DNA from: Acanthamoeba lenticulata
Lineage: Eukaryota > Discosea > Longamoebia > Acanthamoebidae
Length of the DNA stretch: 57,372 nucleotides
Assembly: GCA_002179805.1 (NCBI GenBank)
Contig: NAVB01000222.1
Span: 1-57,372, forward strand
Direction of reading: 5' to 3'
The position numbers and the translations under genes are program-made. The notes under the pieces are model-generated. The model worked only from the letters and a program-made list of their open reading frames with translations, had not been told where the DNA came from and ran no database searches. Below are positions 27,283 through 53,012 of this stretch, one piece after another (position 1 is the stretch's first letter; every line of letters starts with the position of its first letter).

Positions 27283-28317
27283 TTAGATGCGGCGCAGTTC
27301 GGCACCCTGGCGGACCTCAGCGAGGAAGCCCTCCTTGTTCCAAGTCTTGATGCTCACGTCTCCGTCGATGGCCGGGGTGGACTTGTCCTCAGTCTCGACG
27401 TGCTTGAGGTCAGCACCTTGGCGCACCTCGTCGAGCAGCTGGGCCTTGTTGAGCTTCTTGGTCTTGGTGAGGGAGGCCGCCGAGAGGTCGGGCTTGGACT
27501 TGTCCTCGGTCTCCACATGCTTGAGGGCCTGAGTGGCCGCGGCGCCGCTGCCGATCTGCTTGACGATCTCGTCGCGCTTGGCCGCAGCTGAGCTCACGCT
27601 CTTGAGGACGTCGAGACGCGCGCCCGAGCGGTCGTGGATGAGGTCGTCGCTGACCTGGTTGAGGTTGCGTGGGTCGGCCGTCTTGATCTCCTTCTGGAGA
27701 TCGGCGATCTTGTTGGTCTTAATGTGCTCGGAGATGTTCTTGTCGTCGATGGCCACCGTCTTGAGGAGGCCCTTCTCAGTGGGCTCCACGTGCACGAGCG
27801 GCTTCTTGGTCTTGCCCTCGCGGATCTCCTCGAGGAGGGGCGCCTTGTCGAACTGCTTGAGCTTGAACTCGTCCTTGGCCACGAGCTGGCTCACCTCAGG
27901 CTCATGCACCTCGACATGCTTGAGGTGGCACTTGTCGGCGCCACCAGCGCGCTCCACCTCGGCCATGAGCGCGTGCCTCTTGATGATGGTGTCGGTCACC
28001 TCGGCGCGGTCCTCCTCGCTCGTGGCGGTGGTACCGGCGGCAGACTGGCCTTGAAGCTTCTGCTGGTGGCCCTCACGCTCCATCTTGGAGTCGCCCATGA
28101 GGTGGCCCACGGCCTCCTTGACGCCGCCCACGATCTGGTCCTTGTAGCCGCTGGCGACGGCCGCCTCCGTGGCGACGAACTCGCGGGCCTGGGCCACACG
28201 CTCGTCGGCGAGCAGGTTGTCGACGGTATGGTGAGCCTGGTCGATGGTCGCGTTGACGGTGTCAACGAGCTTCTCCTTGATGTTGCTGATGGTCTGCTGG
28301 GTCTGTTCGAGGGCCAT
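27283..28317 (-). CDS. CsbD-like domain fused to actobindin-type beta-thymosin/WH2 repeats
   Basis: A single exon of 344 residues. After an N-terminal helical region (possible amphipathic helices) comes a CsbD-type stress motif (YKDQIVGGVKEAVGHLMGDS, then KMEREG). The rest is about five to six beta-thymosin/WH2-like units, each a short helix plus an LKHxET-type actin-binding motif: HLKHVEVHEPE, PLVHVEPTEKG, a degenerate third unit, then two near-perfect units, QALKHVETEDKS and QLLDEVRQGADLKHVETEDK. The last half-unit is FLAEVRQGAELRRI. The unit closely resembles Acanthamoeba actobindin, which sequesters actin monomers. By analogy this protein should bind several G-actins; the CsbD part, a bacterial stress-protein motif of unclear biochemistry, is unexpected. 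No intron is seen. Confidence 0.75.
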   Translation of the reverse strand: MALEQTQQTISNIKEKLVDTVNATIDQAHHTVDNLLADERVAQAREFVATEAAVASGYKDQIVGGVKEAVGHLMGDSKMEREGHQQKLQGQSAAGTTATSEEDRAEVTDTIIKRHALMAEVERAGGADKCHLKHVEVHEPEVSQLVAKDEFKLKQFDKAPLLEEIREGKTKKPLVHVEPTEKGLLKTVAIDDKNISEHIKTNKIADLQKEIKTADPRNLNQVSDDLIHDRSGARLDVLKSVSSAAAKRDEIVKQIGSGAAATQALKHVETEDKSKPDLSAASLTKTKKLNKAQLLDEVRQGADLKHVETEDKSTPAIDGDVSIKTWNKEGFLAEVRQGAELRRI

Positions 28318-43079: not shown

Positions 43080-46034
43080 ATGGATGCTCCCTCCGCCTCC
43101 TCCTCCGTGGAGCTGGAGATGACGACGCATACGAGTCGGAGCGGAAGTGCTGCCGGCACGGCAGCGGCAACGGCAACCTCGTCGTCAGGTGTCCAAAAGC
43201 ACAGTAAGAAGAAAGAGAAGGCGGCCACGAAGAAGAAGAAGAAGAAAAAGACCAAGGAGAAAGATTCGCGCGAGAAGCGCGATCAAAGCGACACAGAGCA
43301 GGCCTCACCTGGTAAAGTCTGTCGTACTGCATTTCGCTCTTGGTTAAAATTAACTCGTGATTTTCTTTTTCCATTCGGGTGCTCAAAGCGCCTACCGACA
43401 GCCGAGAGAAGAAGCCCCTTACATGGCAGCAGCTAGTCACCACTTCGCGACAAGATGATCAAGATTACATGGACAACCACCATGAAATTGGCATGAAGGA
43501 GATCGTGGTGGTGGATATGCTGGGCGAGGGTTCCTTCTGCACCGTGTGGAAGGGCAAGTGCCGCGGCAAGGAGGTGCTCATTCGCATCCTTAAGCTCCAT
43601 TCAGGCAGCCTCAGCAACAAGGCCCTCGGCCAGTTGCGCGAAGAGGTCAAGCGACTCAGGTTCCTCCTCGCCTTATCGCCATACCATGCCTTTCATTCCA
43701 TACTCACCTGCATCCACCTCGCCACAATCATCCACACCACAACAACTTATATTATTTATCCTTGTGTTTTTGTATTATTATTATTCTTTCTTCTTTACGC
43801 AGCAAAATCCGAAACCCACACATCGTGCTGTTCATGGGCGCTTGCCTCGGTACGCGCCCCTCCCTCCGAGGCCCAGCTCCAAGGCTTTGGCTAATGCGTC
43901 GTGTGTGTGTGTGTGCACACCAGAGCCCGGCTACCTGACACTAGTGACAGAGTACATGCCCTCCAACCTGGAGATCAAGCTTCTGCGCGACCGCGACCGC
44001 AAGGATATCTCCCCCTACCAGCGGCTCAAGATGGCCAAAGACGCCGCCCTCGGTATATCATTCTTCGTCATTTTTTTTTCTTCTCTTTGTTATTTTTACT
44101 GACGTGGTCTTCGCCCACAGGAGTGCAGTGGTTGCACAAGATGAACACGCCGATGGTGCACATGAACTTGCACCTCTCCAACCTCTTGGTCGTCCTCCTC
44201 TTCCTCTTCTCCACCATATCATCATCATCATGACCGTGGACGATCATGACTGACACCAATTTACTGTTTGGGGGGTGGGGGAACTGCTGCAGGTGGGTAA
44301 CGATGGGGTGGTCAAGATCGCCGACTTTGGTTTCCTCAACATGCGCCGCACGTGCGCAGGACGACGCGACCTCGCCAGTTTTGTGTATATGGCCCCCGAG
44401 TTTCTCCAGCACGGCATCAAGAGCGAGAAGTGCGACGTGTACTCGTTTGCCTGCTGCCTCGCCGAGATCCTCTCTGGTACCGCCCTCAGAACTCGCCTCG
44501 TTCTGCTCATCTGATAGCTCCAGCAACTCTGATCATCATCATCATCATCATTTGTTATGAACATCAACAATGCAGGGGAGGAGGTGTTCAAGTCGCTCAA
44601 ACGGGAAATACTGCTGTCCAACCAGCCGGAGGTGGTCCTCTACGACAAGATCGTACTCCGCGGCACCCGTCCCAAGCTATCGCGCGACCACGGTGCCCCC
44701 CCCCCAACGTCGACGCGCCGCATGACTGAATGACTGATGGACCGGGCGAATGGGGATGGATAAACAAATGGCAGTGCCGCCGCCACTTGTGGCGTTGATC
44801 CGGCGAAGTTGGTCGCCCAAGCCGGAGGACCGGCCCAATTTCGACGAAATCATTGAAGTGCTCGATGCCGCCATCATCGACGCCGTCATCAACGACCCCG
44901 CGGGGCGTGCGCTGTGGCGGAACAATTTTGCTGGGCACACGCGCGTGTCGTGGGACGACCTTGTGACGGCCCTTTGCAACCTCTTCATGATCCCCGTCCC
45001 TGCCCTCAACGACGACAAGAAGCTTGACGTCCACTGGCGGTGCCTCAAGGCCCTCCTCGTCACCGGTGGCGTCGATGATCCCTCGGCCGGTTCGTCGCTC
45101 TTTTTCCAGTAATTATAACCGAAACTTTTTGGAAACTTTGTCTCTAATTCTTTGTTGGTGACTTGCTGGCGGTGGGGAGCAGATGGGAAGCTGACGTCAG
45201 GCAGCGGGATGGTGACGCTGGAGAGCTTTGGCAGCAATTTGGCCTGCTTCGGCCCGCTGATGACGCTCGTCGGCGTCTCCTTCCTCACACGCGTACGGAC
45301 GCACCACCTCCATGATGGTGATCGTCACCATGGCTGATCGCCTCCTCGCCTCCAACCTGGTCTGGTCTCTTGTCTCGTCTCGTCTCGTCTCGTGTTTGTC
45401 CCTCGACAGTTGCGAAGCGTGGTGGAGCTCGAGTACTTCCACGGCTACATCACCCCCGAGATGGCCGAAGAGCGGCTCACTGGCCAGCAGGCGGGAACGT
45501 TCCTGCTGCGGCTGAGCTCGCACGCGGGCATCTTCACGGTGTCAGTGGTCACGCGCAGGGGCGTGGAGCACAAGCGCATCCTCTACAATCCCAACGCCGA
45601 ATCGGGTACGTCATTGTTCTCATTCTTCTTCTTCTTCTTCTTCACTTTCATTTCGTTTGTTGTTCCTCACCAGCGCGTGCTCACCCCTTTGAGCAGGCCC
45701 CGTGTACATATACAACAACGCCGCCCACCGCAGCATTCCTGAACTGTATCTCCCTCGCCCCTGTTTCTTTGTTGTACTCATGTTGATGAGGCAGATGATG
45801 ATGATGAAGAACTCACGCACTCGGGTATGCAGGCTGCGGGTGGAGAAGGGGTCGTTCCAGCACTCGTTCTCGTCGACGCGCTACAAGAAGCTCCTCGCGC
45901 CGGGCGACTCGCCGAGCAACGCCAGCGCGCCGCGTGGCGCAGGCGGGAGCGGCGGCTTCAGGTCAGATTACCTCATCCCGGGCGGGTGGGGTCCGGACAA
46001 CACCCACGAGAGCACCGGCGGTCGCCCCCTCTGA
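43080..46034 (+). CDS. SHK-type kinase-like protein with SH2 domain; probable pseudokinase
   Basis: A multi-exon gene. A Lys-rich N-terminus (KKKKKKKTKEKDSREKR) precedes a kinase domain. The Gly loop LGEGSFCTVWKG is intact, but the beta3 motif reads EVLIRIL (Arg in place of the catalytic Lys). The catalytic loop reads VHMNLHLSNLLV instead of HRDLKxxN, so the catalytic Asp is Asn and Lys is His. DFG (IADFGFLNM) and APE (YMAPEFL) remain. A middle region follows, and then a C-terminal SH2 domain: LEYFHGYITPEMAEERLTGQ, QAGTFLLRLSSHAGIFTVSV with the phosphotyrosine-binding Arg, and HKRILYN. Kinase followed by SH2 is the Dictyostelium SHK layout. It probably works as a phosphotyrosine-reading scaffold rather than an active kinase. 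The ATG at 43080 is the first true ATG; the stop is at 46032-46034. Confidence 0.75.
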
Positions 46035-46176
46035 TCGATCAGAGTAGGGGCCCACAACGACCAAATGAACCCATTTTTGTTATTTATAAGTCACGTGTAC
46101 CGACGACGAGACTGGCGAAGGTGGATGGTTGCGGCTTGTGTTGTTGACTGCTGTACAAGTGAAGGCCGCTTTATCG

Positions 46177-46638
46177 CTACGTCGAGCAGCCGCCGCGCAG
46201 ACGAAGGGCGAGGTGAAGAGTCGAGTCCTTCTGGATGTTGTAGTCGGCCAGCGTGCGATCGTCCTCGAGCAGTCTGCCGGCAAAGACGAGCCGCTGCTGG
46301 TCCCGGGGAATGCCCCACATGTCCTGGACCTTCTGCTTCACGTCCCCAATCGTGTCCAAGCTGGCGACCTCGAGGGTGAGGGTCTTTCCGCGCAAGACCT
46401 TCACGAAGATCTGCACGGTGCCGCGAAGGACGAGGTGCAGGGACGACTCCTGCTGGACATCGTAGTCGGCAAGCGTGGGGCCGTCCTCGAGCCGCTTGCC
46501 GGCGAAGACGAGGCACTGCTTGTCAGGGGGTACGCCCTCCTTGTCGTGAATCTTCTGCTTCACGTCCCCTATCGTGTCGCTCGGCTCGACCTCGAGTGTG
46601 ATGGTCTTGCCATATTGGGGCTTCACGAAGATGTGCAT
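46177..46638 (-). CDS. Diverged di-ubiquitin without an internal cleavage site
   Basis: One exon, 153 residues, two ubiquitin units. Unit 1 starts [20 protein letters not shown], keeps Lys48 (AGKRLEDG) but has Gln at 63 (DYDVQQESS). It ends LHLVLRGTV, with the Leu-Arg-Gly-Gly processing end lost. Unit 2 follows directly ([17 protein letters not shown]), has Arg at 48 (AGRLLEDD), keeps Lys63 (YNIQKDS) and ends LRLRGG plus Cys-Ser-Thr. Both differ at many places from ubiquitin, which is otherwise nearly invariant. A normal polyubiquitin precursor is cut after each Gly-Gly; here the first junction should not be cut, leaving a permanent linear dimer whose C-terminus could still be matured. It could also be an expressed relic of a polyubiquitin gene, but the frame is intact. 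Confidence 0.75.
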
Positions 46639-46820
46639 CGTCTGCTTGTGTGCGGGACGCTTTTCGGTGTTTGTTGGAAAAGAAGCTTCTGTCCTTCGAC
46701 AGGGACGCCAATGAACAACACGCGTTAATTTTATAAAAAGGGCCGGTCAGTGGAACATTTCAGTCTTCCACCAAAGTACATTTAACGCCAAACAAGAAGA
46801 ATACAACTAGATTGTAAGCC

Positions 46821-48583
46821 TTACTCAGCTGATGGCTGGATGAGGCCACTCTTGTCGTTGGTCTCGGCCTTCCTGAGGTTGCCTCTCGTGAAGCCAGCGA
46901 TGGCCCCGAGGAGGGCTGAGCGCGCGCCTCCTCCTTCTTCGCCGGACGTCTGTCCGCTGGAGGCGGCCATGGGCGCAGGCGGCGGGGGCGGGGCGCCAGG
47001 CCCGGCGGCGAGCGCGGGTGGTGGCGGAGGCGGCATGGCTGCGGCCGAGACTCGATTCCTGATCTTGGCCTCTTCGGCCTCGACCCGGCGCGCAAAGTCA
47101 GCCCACAAGGCCGTCGCGGCCTCCTCGAGCCAAGCGCGATCGCCCGTCTCGCTGGCCTCGGCCAGCAGCGAGGCCACCAGAGTCTCGTGTCCGCCCTGCA
47201 GAGCAGCTACGTCGTCGAGCAAGGCCTGCACACTGGCGTACATGCGCGGGCCTGGCAAAAGGCGGCGCTGGATCTGCGCCCAGCCCTGCTCGAGCTGGGT
47301 GTAGTTCCGCTGGAGCAGCGCGTAGCGCGCCGAGGCCGCGCCGGGCTCGGCCCGCTCCCCCGTGAGGTTCAACGCGAAGTCGTGAAGCTCATCCGCAAAC
47401 ACGGTCAAGAGCGGGAAGAGGGCCAGCTTGCGGCGCCAGCCCTCGGGGATGCCGTCGGCGCCGTAGAAGGCGCCCGCCAGCTGGCCGTAAATGGCGGTCG
47501 TCGTGTCGGCGTCGTCGCCCAGGTTGGCCACCAGGAGCGCGCCTTCCTCGAACGAGTTCGTGGCGTGAAACGCCCACAGTGCCGCCTCGAGGCTCTTCAC
47601 CACGAAGCCCGCGCCGACGATCTCAGGCGGCTGTTTGGTCTTGTACTCGCCCCGCGCGATCGCATCGATCTCGGGGCACAAGGGCTGCTCGTCGGCAAAG
47701 AGGCCTTCCACGGGGCAGTAGATGTCGTTCGACAGGAGCTCCGCCTTGGACACACCGTTGAGCGCGCCTGGAACAGCTCACGAGCCAAGTCAGAAGGTGC
47801 TCGAGCGCTGAGTTGGCGCGCGGTGGTGTCGGTACCGATGATGAGGGCGGCGTAGTAGCGGCAGGCGTCGATGCACATGATGGAACCGTGCGTCGTGCGC
47901 GAGGAGTCGCCAGCCAGCGCGATGGCCTCGCGCGGTCGCGTGGCGTAGGCCAGCACCACCGGGCACAGGCGCATGAGCGAGCCGTTGCCTGCCACAAATA
48001 TTTGAGTGATTAAGATAAAATAGACTTACGTGAAAGAATAGTAAAAGAGGCAAAGCACCAGCTCGGCTGAGCTCCCCGGTGGAGGCCGGATAGGGCTCGG
48101 TGCCTCTGCTCTGCTCAAACTTGTTGAGCGAAAGGCGCGTGGCAATGCCGATGTCGAAGCACTGCCCGTTGGAGCTCAGGTGGCCTTCCTTGTACCTGCA
48201 CGGTGAAGGATGGCCCGAGGTCAGCGACGTGCTCGTAAGTGGCCACGCCCCGTATGCATACCAGCGCGTGTAGCGCGAGAGTTGGTCGATCGGGTCGAAG
48301 GCGCGTCGCTCCAGCAGACTTTCGGCCAGGCAGAGCGCGAGCGACGTGTCGTCGGTCCACTGGCCTGCGAGCAGGTTGAAGGGCCCGCCGCCGACCTAAT
48401 GTGCCCCCATGCAGGAGCATCAGCGTCAGCAGCGCGGGCAGTGCAGGTGTACAACATAAAGTGCCGTACGATATCGGTGAGGGGAGGCACGGAGGGATCC
48501 CCGGGCCTCTTGAACTCGAGCGTGGTGCCCAGTGCATCGCCAGCGGCTAAGCCCAAGAGCGATCCTCGGTAGCGATTTAGCAT
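46821..48583 (-). CDS. ADP-ribosylglycohydrolase with polyproline and WH2 (actin-binding) tail
   Basis: Five exons from the ATG at 48583. The enzyme part is typical of the DraG/ARH family: [20 protein letters not shown], then [19 protein letters not shown] (metal-binding TDDT), [24 protein letters not shown], and near the end of the fold [20 protein letters not shown] (second metal site). All expected acidic metal ligands appear present, so the enzyme should be active in removing ADP-ribose. After a helical region the C-terminus has two polyproline runs ([11 protein letters not shown] and APPPPPAPM), then [20 protein letters not shown] followed by ETNDKSG. This is a WH2 pattern: amphipathic helix plus an LRKAET actin motif. 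The polyproline-WH2 order is that of WASP-type proteins, where polyproline recruits profilin. The fusion suggests delivery to actin; the stop is at 46821. Confidence 0.8.
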
Positions 48584-48727
48584 TGTGGCTTGGTGTCTTG
48601 TGTAGTGCGTTGTTTGTTCCCTTGTTTTGTTGCGGGACCGGTGTTCGGTGAGATTTTTGTTGTGTGAACGCAGAAACAAATTTGGAACTGTTTTGAAACG
48701 AAAACCAGAACAACATCGATTAAAGAC

Positions 48728-50487
48728 ATGCAGAGAGCTCCTGCCTCGCTGATGCGGTCAGTGCGAGCGGGCGCAGCGAAGTTTGCCCCTCTCCATACTC
48801 CTGGTACGCAGCGTATTCCGAGTGATCAAAACGCAATGAACGAATCATTACTCACGATACGAGCGCACATCGCAGTTGGCAACTCGCAACTGCTGACAAC
48901 TCGAGTGCCGCTCGGCCTCTGTAGTGGCCGTGCTTTGCACACTTCGTTGGCGTTGCGTGCGTTGTCGTTCCCGTCCGTGGGGCACGGCAAAGTGCGCACC
49001 GGCGACAAGCCTGACGAGGACGAAGACGACATTGAACGAGAGCTCGACGAGTTTGATCCAGAGGAGCTCTTTGAGGACGAGGAAGTCACCAATCGCCCCC
49101 AGCAGCGTCGTCACGTCCCAGCAGCGACCGACGGAGGTACGTTTTTTTGAATCCACTTCTCCGCAACCACAGTTCACACGAACATAACCCTTGCTGTACT
49201 TGACGCAGAGGCCGATGCCGCCGTCATGAAAGAGATCGCCGACTTCAACCTGTCTGGGTGCGCCCAGCTGCTTTTCACCCCTTTGGTGCTTCTCACAATC
49301 GACTTACGCTCACTTGCACAGCGAGCAGTACCACCGGCTCGGCATGTGGAACGAAGCTGAACAGGCCTTCCGCGACACGCTTGCGCTGGTCGACGAGCAC
49401 CTCGGATCGCACCACCCGATCGTACGAACAGAAGCTGCCCCTCCTTATTCTTCTCTTTCCTCGTCTTCTGGTGATGGCACATCACCATCACCATGGACGC
49501 CGAGACCGGGCCTAAGCGGATATGTCGTCGTGCAGGCGGCCGTTGTGCTGAACAACCTGGCGCTTGTGTGCCGTCAGAAGGGCGAGCTGGGCGAGGCCGA
49601 GCAACTTCTCCAGCAGGCGCTCAACCTACGCAGGTTTGCAACCGATGGCCGTTTGTTCTCATTATTATGATTATTATTGTTCTCGACATCACGACGCTCA
49701 GAGGCCAACTGTAATGCGCGATGTACGCAACAGAGCGCACTTGGGGGCGTCGCACCCGCGTGTGGCGGTCATCCTGGACCATCTGGGCTCCATCTACCGC
49801 CAGCAGAAGCGAACCGACGACGCACTCGACGTATTCCGCCAGTCTCTTGCCATTGTTGAGGAGTGGGACGCCAAGAAGCGCAGCCCCGAACGAGCACGAG
49901 CTCAGAGCGCTTCTGAGCGAACAGCGCAGCAGACTGGAGAGGCCGAGCCAGAGACCAGCCTGATGCTGGACGAGATTGACGCCAACGTCGGTGCCGACGA
50001 AGACGACGACTGGGAGGATCTGATTGATCTCGGCACGGCGCAGAACAACCTGGCCCTTGTCCACTACCAGCTCGGCAACTACGCTGAAGCCGAGGGCCTC
50101 TTCGCCTCGGCCGTGGCCAAGGCCAAGCAACGCGAGCAAGACCGCGAGGAGATGGAGCGACGCGGCGAGGCTGGCGAGGTCCAGGTCCGGGCAGCCCGGC
50201 GCGATCCGCTGGCCGCGTCCTCGGTCGTCATGAGGAAGAACCTGGCGCTGTGCCTGCTCAAGCTGGGCAAGCTCGAGCAGAGCGAGCGCGAGCTCAAGGA
50301 CGCGCTGGACCACCTGCGCGAGGAGGTCGGACTGCGGGAGCACGAGGAACCCGTCATTGACGTCTACCGCCACCTTGCCCGAGTCTACGCAGCGGCGGGC
50401 AGAAGCGATGAGAGCGCGTTCTACGCCGACAAAGTCGCCCGCCACGAGGAGAGGAAGCGGGCCGCTGACGGTCTACAAAAATTGTAA
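48728..50487 (+). CDS. TPR-repeat protein, probably mitochondrial
   Basis: Multi-exon. Exon 1 (MQRAPASLMRSVRAGAAKFA) joins across a GTACGC intron to VGNSQLLTTRVPLGL and SGRALHTSLALRALSF, an Arg/Ser-rich, acid-poor start suggesting a mitochondrial presequence. An acidic linker (DKPDEDEDDIERELDEFDPE) follows. The rest is TPR of kinesin-light-chain style: YHRLGMWNEAEQAFRDTLAL, VVLNNLALVCRQKGELGEAE, VILDHLGSIYRQQKRTDDAL, QNNLALVHYQLGNYAEAEGL, NLALCLLKLGKLEQSERELK and YRHLARVYAAAGRSDESAFY. TPRs bind proteins; the partner is unknown. Human TTC19, a mitochondrial TPR protein of similar repeat style, is a possible relative but I cannot confirm it. The stop is at 50485-50487. Confidence 0.7.
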
Positions 50488-51296
50488 AAGGACTGTGACG
50501 AGATTCGAACTCGAGCTATTTCTTTTTCATGTTTGGTTCGGGTCAAGGACGGGATTCGAACCGCACCGTGGAACTTGGAACCTAAATCGACGAGAACTCA
50601 AGAAAATGGCCTGCAGAAATGCCGAGAGGAATGGCCCGACCACGCCTGGACGACCCGACGCGGAGGGTTGAGCGCTCATATTTCCGGGTTCTTCTCGGTA
50701 CCGCTACCCATACTATCGCCGAGCGCTTCCCCTTGGCTCTAGGAAGCCAACTACGACGACGTCCCTGCGTTGGGATTCAAAATCAAGCCATTCTGCTTCT
50801 CGAACCTGACCCGTACCAGCCACCGCCCGGTAACGCAACAGTCGTACTGCGACAGTCATCACCTCCATTCATCATCGTCTGATCACCACGCCCTCAACGT
50901 AGCCATAAACCCGCCCGGTCTTGTTTGGTAGGTGCCCGCATCCACGCTACCGGCCCCATGGGGACCGTCCACTTGCGGCATTGTTGCGGCCGATTCGGAC
51001 CGTAAAAGCGACTAACTTGGAGCGGCAAATGTCTTTAACGCCGGCGGGCAGTGTTTATTGGTGTCCCTTCTTTCGTCGACGTGACAACTAGCCTGATCCA
51101 ACGAAACCGAGCTTCTCCTCGACCACTCCGCCCAGCGACCACAGACAAGCAAGAAAGCAGGCCGACAAGGGGCAACAAAAGGCCAGAGAGCCAAAACAGA
51201 CAAGGCCGACCAGGTCCCACACAAGGCCTCAACAACACACGCCCTCACAATCTTGGATAGATTCCAGAAGAGAAGGAAAGGGAGAAAGGGAGAGAG
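50488..51296. other. 0.8 kb without a recognised gene
   Basis: No domain or credible spliced reading frame seen. Two short stretches (near 50497-50510 and 50547-50560) resemble the tRNA T-loop B box on the minus strand (GGTTCGAATC type), but no cloverleaf can be built around either. The last 100 bases are the A-rich leader of the lipase-like gene. Confidence 0.4.
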
Positions 51297-53012
51297 ATGG
51301 CCGACAACAACAACAACACACAAAACAGCCTCACGCTGTCCATAGAGCTGGACGACGCCTTTGAGGACTTTTTTGCCCAACCACCCCAGGACAGCCCGTC
51401 CAAGCTCCTCACAGGCAGCTTCGCCAACCGACAAGACCTCAACCTCTTCACCTACGCCTGGCTCCCCAAGTCTGGCAAGCCCATGTACGTCCTCCAGCCC
51501 ATGCGTGTGTCCTTCTTCGTCTTCATCTATGGGCCCGAGGAGTTTCGCGCGAGCTTGTTACAACAATGCGTGCATTACATGTCATCATTTCGTATATTAA
51601 CGGGGCCTTCTGGGTATCTCCGTGCGCCCACAACAGAGCTTCAGTATTCCTCTTCCATGGGTTCGGCGAACACGCGGGCCGCTACAAGCGCCTCGCCCAC
51701 GCGCTCAACCAGCAGGGCTTTGCCTTCTTTGCGCTCGACATGCAGGGTACGCATGACGTCTCTCTCTCTTCCCTTTGGCGTCACGGTCCTTTGGCGCTCA
51801 CGTGCTCGCCGCGGACGTGACAGGCCACGGCAAGTCGGCCGGCAAGCGCGGCTACGTGGGCAAGTACGAGGACTTGGTCCGAGACGCCTGCGACTTCATC
51901 AGCAAAGTGCCGCCGGTCTACCTGCAGCTGCCCAAGTTCCTCGTCGGGGCGGGCATCGGCGGGACGATCATCAATATGACGGCCACGCTCACGCACGCGC
52001 GCAGGCCGGGCTTCTTCGCCGGCCTCATCTTCCTCAGCCCCGCGGTCAAGCGCGGCCAAATCGCGGCGTCGTCGTCCAACGTGTGGCGGGCCAGCCTGTT
52101 GGGCCGTAAAGTGCGCGTGTCCGACCCCCAACTGCTCTCCCACGACCCCGAAGTCGGTGCGTGTCGACGTCCCTCCTCTTCATCGCCATCATCACCATCA
52201 TCGTCTTCATCATTGTCTTCTTCTTCTGACGTCCCTCCTCTTCATCGCCATCATCACCATCATCGTCTTCATCATTGTCTTCTTCTTCTGACGCCGTCGC
52301 TGTGTAGTGGCCAATTACCAGATGGACACGCTGGTGTTCCACGGCAAGGTGAAGAGCTCGACGGCGTCGCAGCTGCTCAAGGCCATGGCCTGGCTGGACT
52401 CGCCGCGCTCGGTGGACAAGATGACGTTCCCCTTCCTCATATGCCAGGGCTCGGCCGACCAGATCGTGTCGCCTCTCGGCGCCAAGCACCTGCACGACGC
52501 GGCGCCGTCCAAGGACAAGCAGCTGAACCTCTACAAGGGCTTCTATCATGACCTCGTGCACGAGAAGGGCGGGGAGCGGGTCGTGGACGACATCGTCTCG
52601 TGGATCGCGAAACGAGCCGCAACGGCCGAGTTCACGCCCATCCCCGCCGAGGCCCAGACGCCGCGCTTCTTCCCCGAGCCGGTCGAGAAGAAGGGCTCCC
52701 TCGTACGTTGCTCCCTGGCTTTGGCCTGGTCGACTAACCCGGCGTTGCATTGCGTCATCATCATCTGACCAGACGTTGGGTGCGAAACAGATCGGTGAGC
52801 GCAAGGCCTCGTGCCCGCCAGAGTCGCTGGAGAACGAGTTCGGCATGGTGGCGCCTCCTTCGCCCGCGTTCAGCCTCGACCGGTCGCTGTCGCTCACGAT
52901 GCCGGCCATCGCCTGCATCGGCGAAGACGGCGAGGGCGAAGCCGTCGCGAGCGATCTCCTGCCCGAGGACCAAAACGCCGCCTTCTATCTGGCTCCGCCT
53001 GTGCGGGCGTGA
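51297..53012 (+). CDS. Monoglyceride-lipase-like protein lacking the nucleophile Ser (probable pseudoenzyme)
   Basis: Five exons with GTACGT-type donors (51485, 51747). The fold is that of monoglyceride lipase: VFLFHGFGEHAGRYKRLAHA (oxyanion loop), FFALDMQGHGKSAGKRGYVG, then the elbow FLVGAGIGGTIINMTATL. In active members the elbow is G-x-S-x-G; here Ser is Gly. The acid (CQGSADQIVSP) and His (GFYHDLVHE) remain in place. A Gly at the elbow means no acyl-enzyme can form, so I predict a lipid-binding or regulatory protein. The N-terminus is acidic and Asn-rich; the C-terminal extension (SLENEFGMVAPPSPAFSLDR onward) is outside the fold. Intron 3 contains a perfect 62-bp tandem duplication. The intact paralogue is at 41411-42903. 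Confidence 0.75.
52166..52293. repeat. Two tandem copies of a 62-bp intronic unit
   Basis: The unit starting GACGTCCCTCCTCTTCATCG at 52166 is repeated exactly from 52228, and the first bases of a third copy (GACG) follow. The unit is pyrimidine-rich with TCATCA runs and lies in the intron between the third and fourth exons of the lipase-like gene, extending the polypyrimidine tract. It probably arose by recent slippage or unequal exchange. Confidence 0.9.

Follow-up and report, generated by a model that had tools for sequence, protein, structure and literature searches.

An ADP-ribosylglycohydrolase joined to a polyproline–WH2 tail in Acanthamoeba lenticulata, a candidate actin de-ADP-ribosylation enzyme

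The DNA analysed was a 57,372-nucleotide stretch of contig C202 from Acanthamoeba lenticulata (the window), in which a gene on the minus strand at 46821–48583 encodes an ADP-ribosylglycohydrolase (ARH) fused to a proline-rich tail with a WH2 motif. The gene model was built on splice signals alone and contains five exons; its four introns are 66–74 nt long, all with GT–AG boundaries, and splicing gives a clean protein of 494 residues (Table 1). Between these coordinates the original prediction had placed a set of ARH motifs, a pair of polyproline runs and a WH2 at the C terminus, and all of these elements do sit in one gene. It had also described them as sharing one frame with no break. This is correct for GDDADT and for everything from the two proline runs to the WH2, which together occupy one exon and an open frame of 318 codons, but incorrect for TDDT (exon 2) and GNGSLMR (exon 3/4 junction), which, like CFDIG (exon 3), are separated from them by introns; the location of TDDT and GNGSLMR in other exons rules out a single-frame reading of the whole gene. 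A frameshift suspected before ALNG proved to be a 68-nt intron, across which splicing gives IIGALNG, comparable with ILGALNG in the related metagenomic protein P0001.

Table 1. Exons of the fusion gene and domains of its predicted product, with positions in the window
Feature	Position	Strand	Content or basis
Exon 1	48470..48583	minus	Start codon, GDALG...LEF (ARH N-terminus); also exon 1 of the C203 copy
Exon 2	48262..48395	minus	Holds metal-binding TDDT (48345-48356)
Exon 3	48059..48195	minus	Holds CFDIG; its Asp aligns with DraG Asp97
Exon 4	47836..47988	minus	GNGSLMR (starts at exon 3/4 junction) and SRTTHG
Exon 5	46821..47767	minus	GDDADT (47502-47519), three-helix bundle, proline linker, WH2, stop; one open frame
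ADP-ribosylglycohydrolase domain, residues 1-309	47379..48583, including introns	minus	Pfam PF03747, PDB relatives
Three-helix bundle, residues ~326-423	47037..47330	minus	AlphaFold2 model, mean pLDDT 89.2
Proline-rich linker, ~34 residues, two runs (47016-47033, 46977-46991)	46935..47036	minus	Sequence
WH2 motif	46845..46934	minus	Pfam PF02205; identical in the C203 copy

For assignment of the enzyme domain, the Pfam profile PF03747 was matched to the protein in three pieces. Two of these scored above the curated cut-off (E values of 1.3e-19 and 1.1e-13), and the first-exon piece alone gave E 0.00013 and 22.2 bits, below the cut-off of 26.2; taken exon by exon, the match extends over most of the domain and places the protein in the PF03747 superfamily. 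All of the ARH core motifs are present (TDDT at residues 52–55, GDDADT at 263–268, CFDIG, GNGSLMR and SRTTHG). They include the metal-binding TDD and DxDT/S pair. Between the enzyme and the prolines lies a conserved three-helix bundle that was absent from the original prediction; it aligns, wholly or partly, with 10 relatives, and a structural search with it returned no significant match to a named fold. The proline runs that follow may bind profilin or SH3 domains, and the corresponding part of the linker in a model of the Balamuthia mandrillaris homologue (P0002) has low pLDDT.

The WH2 motif was matched by PF02205 with E 4e-8 and a score of 33.1 bits (cut-off 23.1), and in a whole-genome profile scan it ties with its own copy on contig C203 for second of 28 matches. 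It ends 7 residues short of the stop codon. The tail had been called WASP-like, which is a loose term: in WASP-type nucleation promoters the WH2 is followed by a central and an acidic Arp2/3-binding region, and no such region stands behind the WH2 here, so that Arp2/3 activation is not suggested. Weak matches below the Pfam cut-offs were also seen, to Thymosin on the window tail, to Raftlin in P0002, and to HEF_HK and DUF7556 in the Pelomyxa schiedti protein P0003. PADLOC gave no match with P0002 or with the last exon of the fusion gene.

A second copy of the gene was found on contig C203, the first 9 kb of which align with window positions 43484–52631 (95% identity over the main 8.8-kb block). 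By this measure C203 represents either a second haplotype of the C202 region or a very recent copy of it. The copy has the same five exons, with four GT–AG introns of differing lengths, and encodes 492 residues; the two proteins differ by two single-codon indels and seven substitutions, and their WH2 motifs are identical. Values of dN and dS between the copies were 0.004–0.011 and 0.034–0.055, respectively, in the ARH, bundle and linker, and the last 29 codons showed no change of either kind. Judged by these values, the fusion gene is intact and evidently under constraint, a comparison that does not speak for deep conservation.

The whole genome (48.5 Mb, 1825 contigs) was then scanned for both domains. 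Among solved structures, a profilin that it encodes comes nearest to Acanthamoeba castellanii profilin II (1f2k; 11 differences over 125 residues) and profilin I (1acf), in keeping with an Acanthamoeba or close relative. ARH matches (E <= 0.001) were obtained on at least 18 contigs and WH2 matches (E <= 1) on at least 25, and only C202 and C203 appeared in both lists, in a shared-contig test that is coarse and whose match counts are lower bounds. None of the remaining 23 WH2 contigs carried an ARH match. Sixteen other contigs carry ARH matches; a tblastn search with the window protein, run on regions of 14 of them, returned one weak match (35%), and 13 of the 14 gave none at E 1e-3. The ARH family is expanded in this genome, where PF03747 gave at least 32 exon-level hits spread over the 18 contigs. 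As to the tail, several other WH2 proteins end in the same style as the fusion protein, among them one on C892 and C654 with, by eye, an SH3-like region, then polyproline and WH2 (ALLxxIxxF...LKK), and the polyproline–WH2 proteins of the genome are suggested as a place from which the fusion tail could come.

The same ARH+WH2 order had been proposed as something to look for in other Amoebozoa, and it was found, with the tail conserved, in Balamuthia mandrillaris (Amoebozoa, Discosea, Centramoebida). Its protein of 508 aa, P0002, runs in the order ARH, bundle, prolines, WH2; PF03747 covers residues 14–313 (profile positions 1–286), and the WH2 scores 27.6 bits against the Pfam cut-off of 23.1. 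P0002 is 68% identical to the window protein over the ARH, 42% over the bundle region and 52% over the WH2 tail, and has another linker and extra loops. Aligned with the Balamuthia tail, the WH2 stretch scored 80, which none of 20,000 shuffles reached (best shuffle, 49). The protein database already tags P0002 with PF03747 and PF02205 but names it only by its ARH domain (ADP-ribosyl-[dinitrogen reductase] glycohydrolase), and the open-access literature yielded no described function for this protein.

Among the best 120 matches listed in each of two protein searches, with 8000 candidates scored in each, P0002 was the only protein with a precomputed WH2 tag. A protein search with a bundle-to-tail query, again with 8000 candidates scored and probably crowded by proline-rich words, recovered only P0002 and missed P0001. 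This metagenomic protein (477 aa) has an ARH 77% identical to that of the window protein and ends in prolines followed by ALLSAIAHFDVTKLCRRDN. This end can be aligned to the beginning of the WH2 (9/21 identical) without a Pfam call, and may be a short WH2 cut by an intron. The enzyme and bundle together were found in P. schiedti P0003 (Archamoebae), in P0009, P0122, P0126 and P0129, and in the transcriptome protein P0158, and part of the enzyme or bundle in P0121 and P0005. A precomputed WH2 tag is carried by none of these eight, several of which are metagenomic gene calls and possibly incomplete; the C terminus of P0158, NFLSAIQKKST, is perhaps a remnant or the start of a WH2-like helix. Actin docking is thus not general to the family, and the ancestral job of the enzyme need not involve actin.

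A tree of 36 rows was built, in which 26 rows were bundle-less proteins hand-picked from 222. The ten bundle-bearing proteins cluster in it (0 of 500 shuffles were as low) but need two changes rather than one, with Pelomyxa placed among the others (80/74 support). One change was seen in 2% of 200 bootstrap trees, and the supports are rough rather than settled. On this tree a single origin of the bundle-bearing proteins is possible.

By sequence, the nearest solved structures were Thermus ARH 2cwc (218 bits) and 6dre (194 bits), followed by Listeria Lmo0067 (116 bits), DraG (100 bits) and ARH3 (73 bits), with human ARH1 matched only when a profile was used (56 bits). Human ARH1, ARH3 and ADPRHL1/ARH2 belong to the same superfamily and are distant in sequence. 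A fold search with the Balamuthia model ranked 6drh/6dre first, then Thermus ARH, with 8za7 in sixth place; the PDB titles are "ADP-ribosyltransferase toxin/immunity pair" for 6drh/6dre and "ART-ARH type toxin effector-immunity protein pair" for 8za7 (Listeria). An NCBIfam scan of P0002, P0001 and the last exon of the window gene gave "ADP-ribosylarginine hydrolase Tri1" (NF041672) as the best match, with 277, 294 and, for the last exon alone, 100 bits, all below the equivalog cut-off of 490 bits. The DraG equivalog TIGR02662 (cut-off 337 bits) was missed as well, with 128, 152 and 56 bits, respectively. Scores below both cut-offs mean that family membership does not reveal the substrate specificity. 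By these scores the fusion enzyme is an ARH superfamily member near Tri1 that belongs to neither named equivalog, and it is nearer to the Tri1/DraG-type arginine enzymes than to ARH3.

Tri1 is a bacterial protein whose N-terminal extension blocks its toxin, and we take the Tri1 of 6dre/6drh to be an immunity protein, in keeping with the PDB title. It shares the ARH domain and the same core motifs with the fusion protein and stands second by sequence, first by fold of the Balamuthia model and best in NCBIfam, but it lacks the helical bundle, prolines and WH2. The N-terminal extension is in turn missing here: in P0002 and P0001 the match starts at model position 62–65, and the window protein starts at the ARH. 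DraG, which acts on nitrogenase reductase in nitrogen-fixing bacteria, shares the ARH fold and catalytic motifs, and an Asp is aligned at the position of its Asp97; it has no such tail, and the scores of the relatives fall far short of its equivalog cut-off. The determinants of arginine versus serine specificity in ARHs remain to be shown (PMC5727137), so that arginine specificity of the fusion enzyme stays presumptive.

Over the enzyme portion of the last exon, the other ARHs listed show 55–66% identity, and those with a named organism are all bacterial. Thirteen were aligned, of which 12 stop at or shortly past the ARH end, and the extension of the other, P0028, is unlike the bundle. On these comparisons, the ARH may plausibly have come from bacteria by transfer. 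A scan of viral contigs returned nine ARH loci at 32–54% identity; a viral source of the fusion was set aside, as no WH2-like end was seen by eye in the seven loci translated, a set that leaves out L068 and L070. ARH domains joined to phosphatase-type Pfam domains (PF00782, PF22784, PF05706 and others) recur in P0025, P0106, P0111, P0123, P0170, P0199 and further proteins, and P0125 and P0127 carry, by eye, two different ARH domains in tandem.

Many bacterial enzymes put actin out of action through ADP-ribosylation of Arg177, an attack that bacteria-eating amoebae have to survive. Within the genome, which has 105 actin-family matches overall, Arg177 was present in all six actin loci read, each time in the context HAILRLDLAG and 166 residues after the Asp of DNGSG; this Asp we take to be actin residue 11, and hence the arginine to be 177. 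WH2 motifs bind monomeric actin (G-actin), not filaments. Their binding has been likened to that of the thymosin N-terminus (PMC9266650), and toxins that modify Arg177 are described as attacking monomeric actin and collapsing filaments (PMC7390403), so that the tail and the supposed substrate match. According to a review, ADP-ribosylation by Salmonella SpvB activates actin degradation in Acanthamoeba rhysodes (PMC8402458), which indicates that the genus meets actin damage of this kind. Human ARH1 is reported to strip automodification from two exotoxins that also modify actin (PMC9787417), and the authors of work on Adprhl1 raise the speculation that actin modified by toxins may be freed by ARH1 (Adprh) (PMC7390403); an antidote function would thus be in line with the ARH family. 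Actin modified at Thr148, by a toxin that acts on filaments, is reported to be bound less well by profilin and thymosin-beta4 (PMC9266650). It is a less likely substrate, given this weaker binding and the bond to threonine. No match to the arginine-writer profiles PF01129 and PF03496 was found in the genome, in a search in which the control profiles were silent too.

The best reading, which we hold tentatively, is of an actin-tethered ADP-ribosyl hydrolase, probably an antidote to actin-modifying bacterial toxins. The WH2 tail would bind monomeric actin, and the flexible proline linker would bring an ADP-ribosylated arginine of the tethered molecule, most likely Arg177, within range of the ARH domain; this domain would then cleave off the ADP-ribose, and the actin could polymerise again. 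Bacterial prey and pathogens that ADP-ribosylate actin would be the likely selective pressure. Actin binding, arginine specificity, actin as the substrate and the antidote role are all features that we infer. A possible history, put forward with some reserve, is that amoebae acquired an ARH close to the toxin-immunity hydrolases of bacteria, which gained the bundle and then, in Centramoebida, a polyproline–WH2 tail that would catch and repair Arg177-ADP-ribosylated G-actin and return it to the polymerisable pool.

The ARH and WH2 are truly fused. The gene model does lean on splice signals, as might be held in favour of a gene-model or assembly error that drew in the WH2 of another gene. Such an artefact is very improbable and, on the evidence at hand, close to refuted: ARH, prolines and WH2 lie in one uninterrupted exon on both contigs, the frame survives the two 3-nt coding indels between the copies, and the Balamuthia protein shows the same domain order. 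The original prediction had itself named a WH2 exon belonging to another gene as a ground for abandoning the fusion, and the ARH–WH2 junction inside a single exon speaks against it.

A serious possibility, nearly as likely as repair of actin itself, is that actin is the anchor and another protein the substrate, with the WH2 serving to bring the enzyme to places rich in actin, for instance phagocytic cups; small GTPases, Arp2/3 subunits or proteins marked by the amoeba's PARP-type enzymes would be candidates. The genome contains 47 matches to PARP-domain exons, which makes endogenous ADP-ribosylation likely, and the retention of enzyme and bundle in relatives without a WH2 call leaves room for a job without actin docking. 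However, a WH2 binds monomers rather than filaments and would be poorly suited to directing the enzyme to a cortical site. ADP-ribosylation of Arp2/3 by a toxin has been reported (PMC9688287), which would suit a substrate other than actin. The residues that carry PARP-type marks, on the other hand, are usually acidic ones or serine, and the enzymes ARH1 and DraG are specific for arginine (PMC5727137, PMC6309922). It is improbable that the protein is mainly an actin regulator, its ARH fold serving to scaffold or to read ADP-ribose in the way put forward for Adprhl1 (ARH2). Heart Adprhl1, described as an ARH-family pseudoenzyme affecting actin filament assembly (PMC4990356, PMC7390403), does already link the ARH fold to actin assembly (PMC7390403), but the ARH active-site motifs are present in both the window protein and its Balamuthia homologue, and the work on Adprhl1 makes no mention of WH2 (0 occurrences in PMC7390403).

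A fusion of an ARH to WH2, or of an ARH to any actin-binding partner, was not found described in the open-access literature. The architecture is new, both families being known, and its new element is the direct fusion of an ARH to a predicted actin-monomer binder. We know of no earlier dedicated actin de-ADP-ribosylase, and if the enzyme does repair toxin-modified actin, the fusion protein would be the first. An eraser joined to a predicted G-actin binder would offer a direct handle on eukaryotic repair of such actin, and would bear on the reuse of immunity-type enzymes from bacterial conflict as eukaryotic innate defence.

The neighbourhood of the gene was read by eye. The next gene downstream (46177–46746, minus strand) encodes two tandem diverged ubiquitin-like domains with the end LRLRGGCST. 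On the plus strand, the flank at ~44.2–46.0 kb holds a kinase piece and then an SH2-like stretch (FHGYITPEMAEERLTGQQAGTFLLRLS), and from 48715 onward the other flank encodes a TPR-like protein, transcribed divergently. Elsewhere in the window, at 27376–27444 on the minus strand, an ORF of 352 codons appears to encode a thymosin/actobindin-like protein of multiple repeats, in which several LKHVETEDKS-like motifs occur; its WH2 score is 19.4 bits, below the cut-off, and a copy is present on C888. At C37:14618–14701 (L028), an F-box-like protein has, by eye, a WH2-like end (NSRLALLGDIAAFDKRRLRRVHTHDRSG) that scores 20.7 bits, below the Pfam cut-off, and could possibly be an actin-directed F-box protein.
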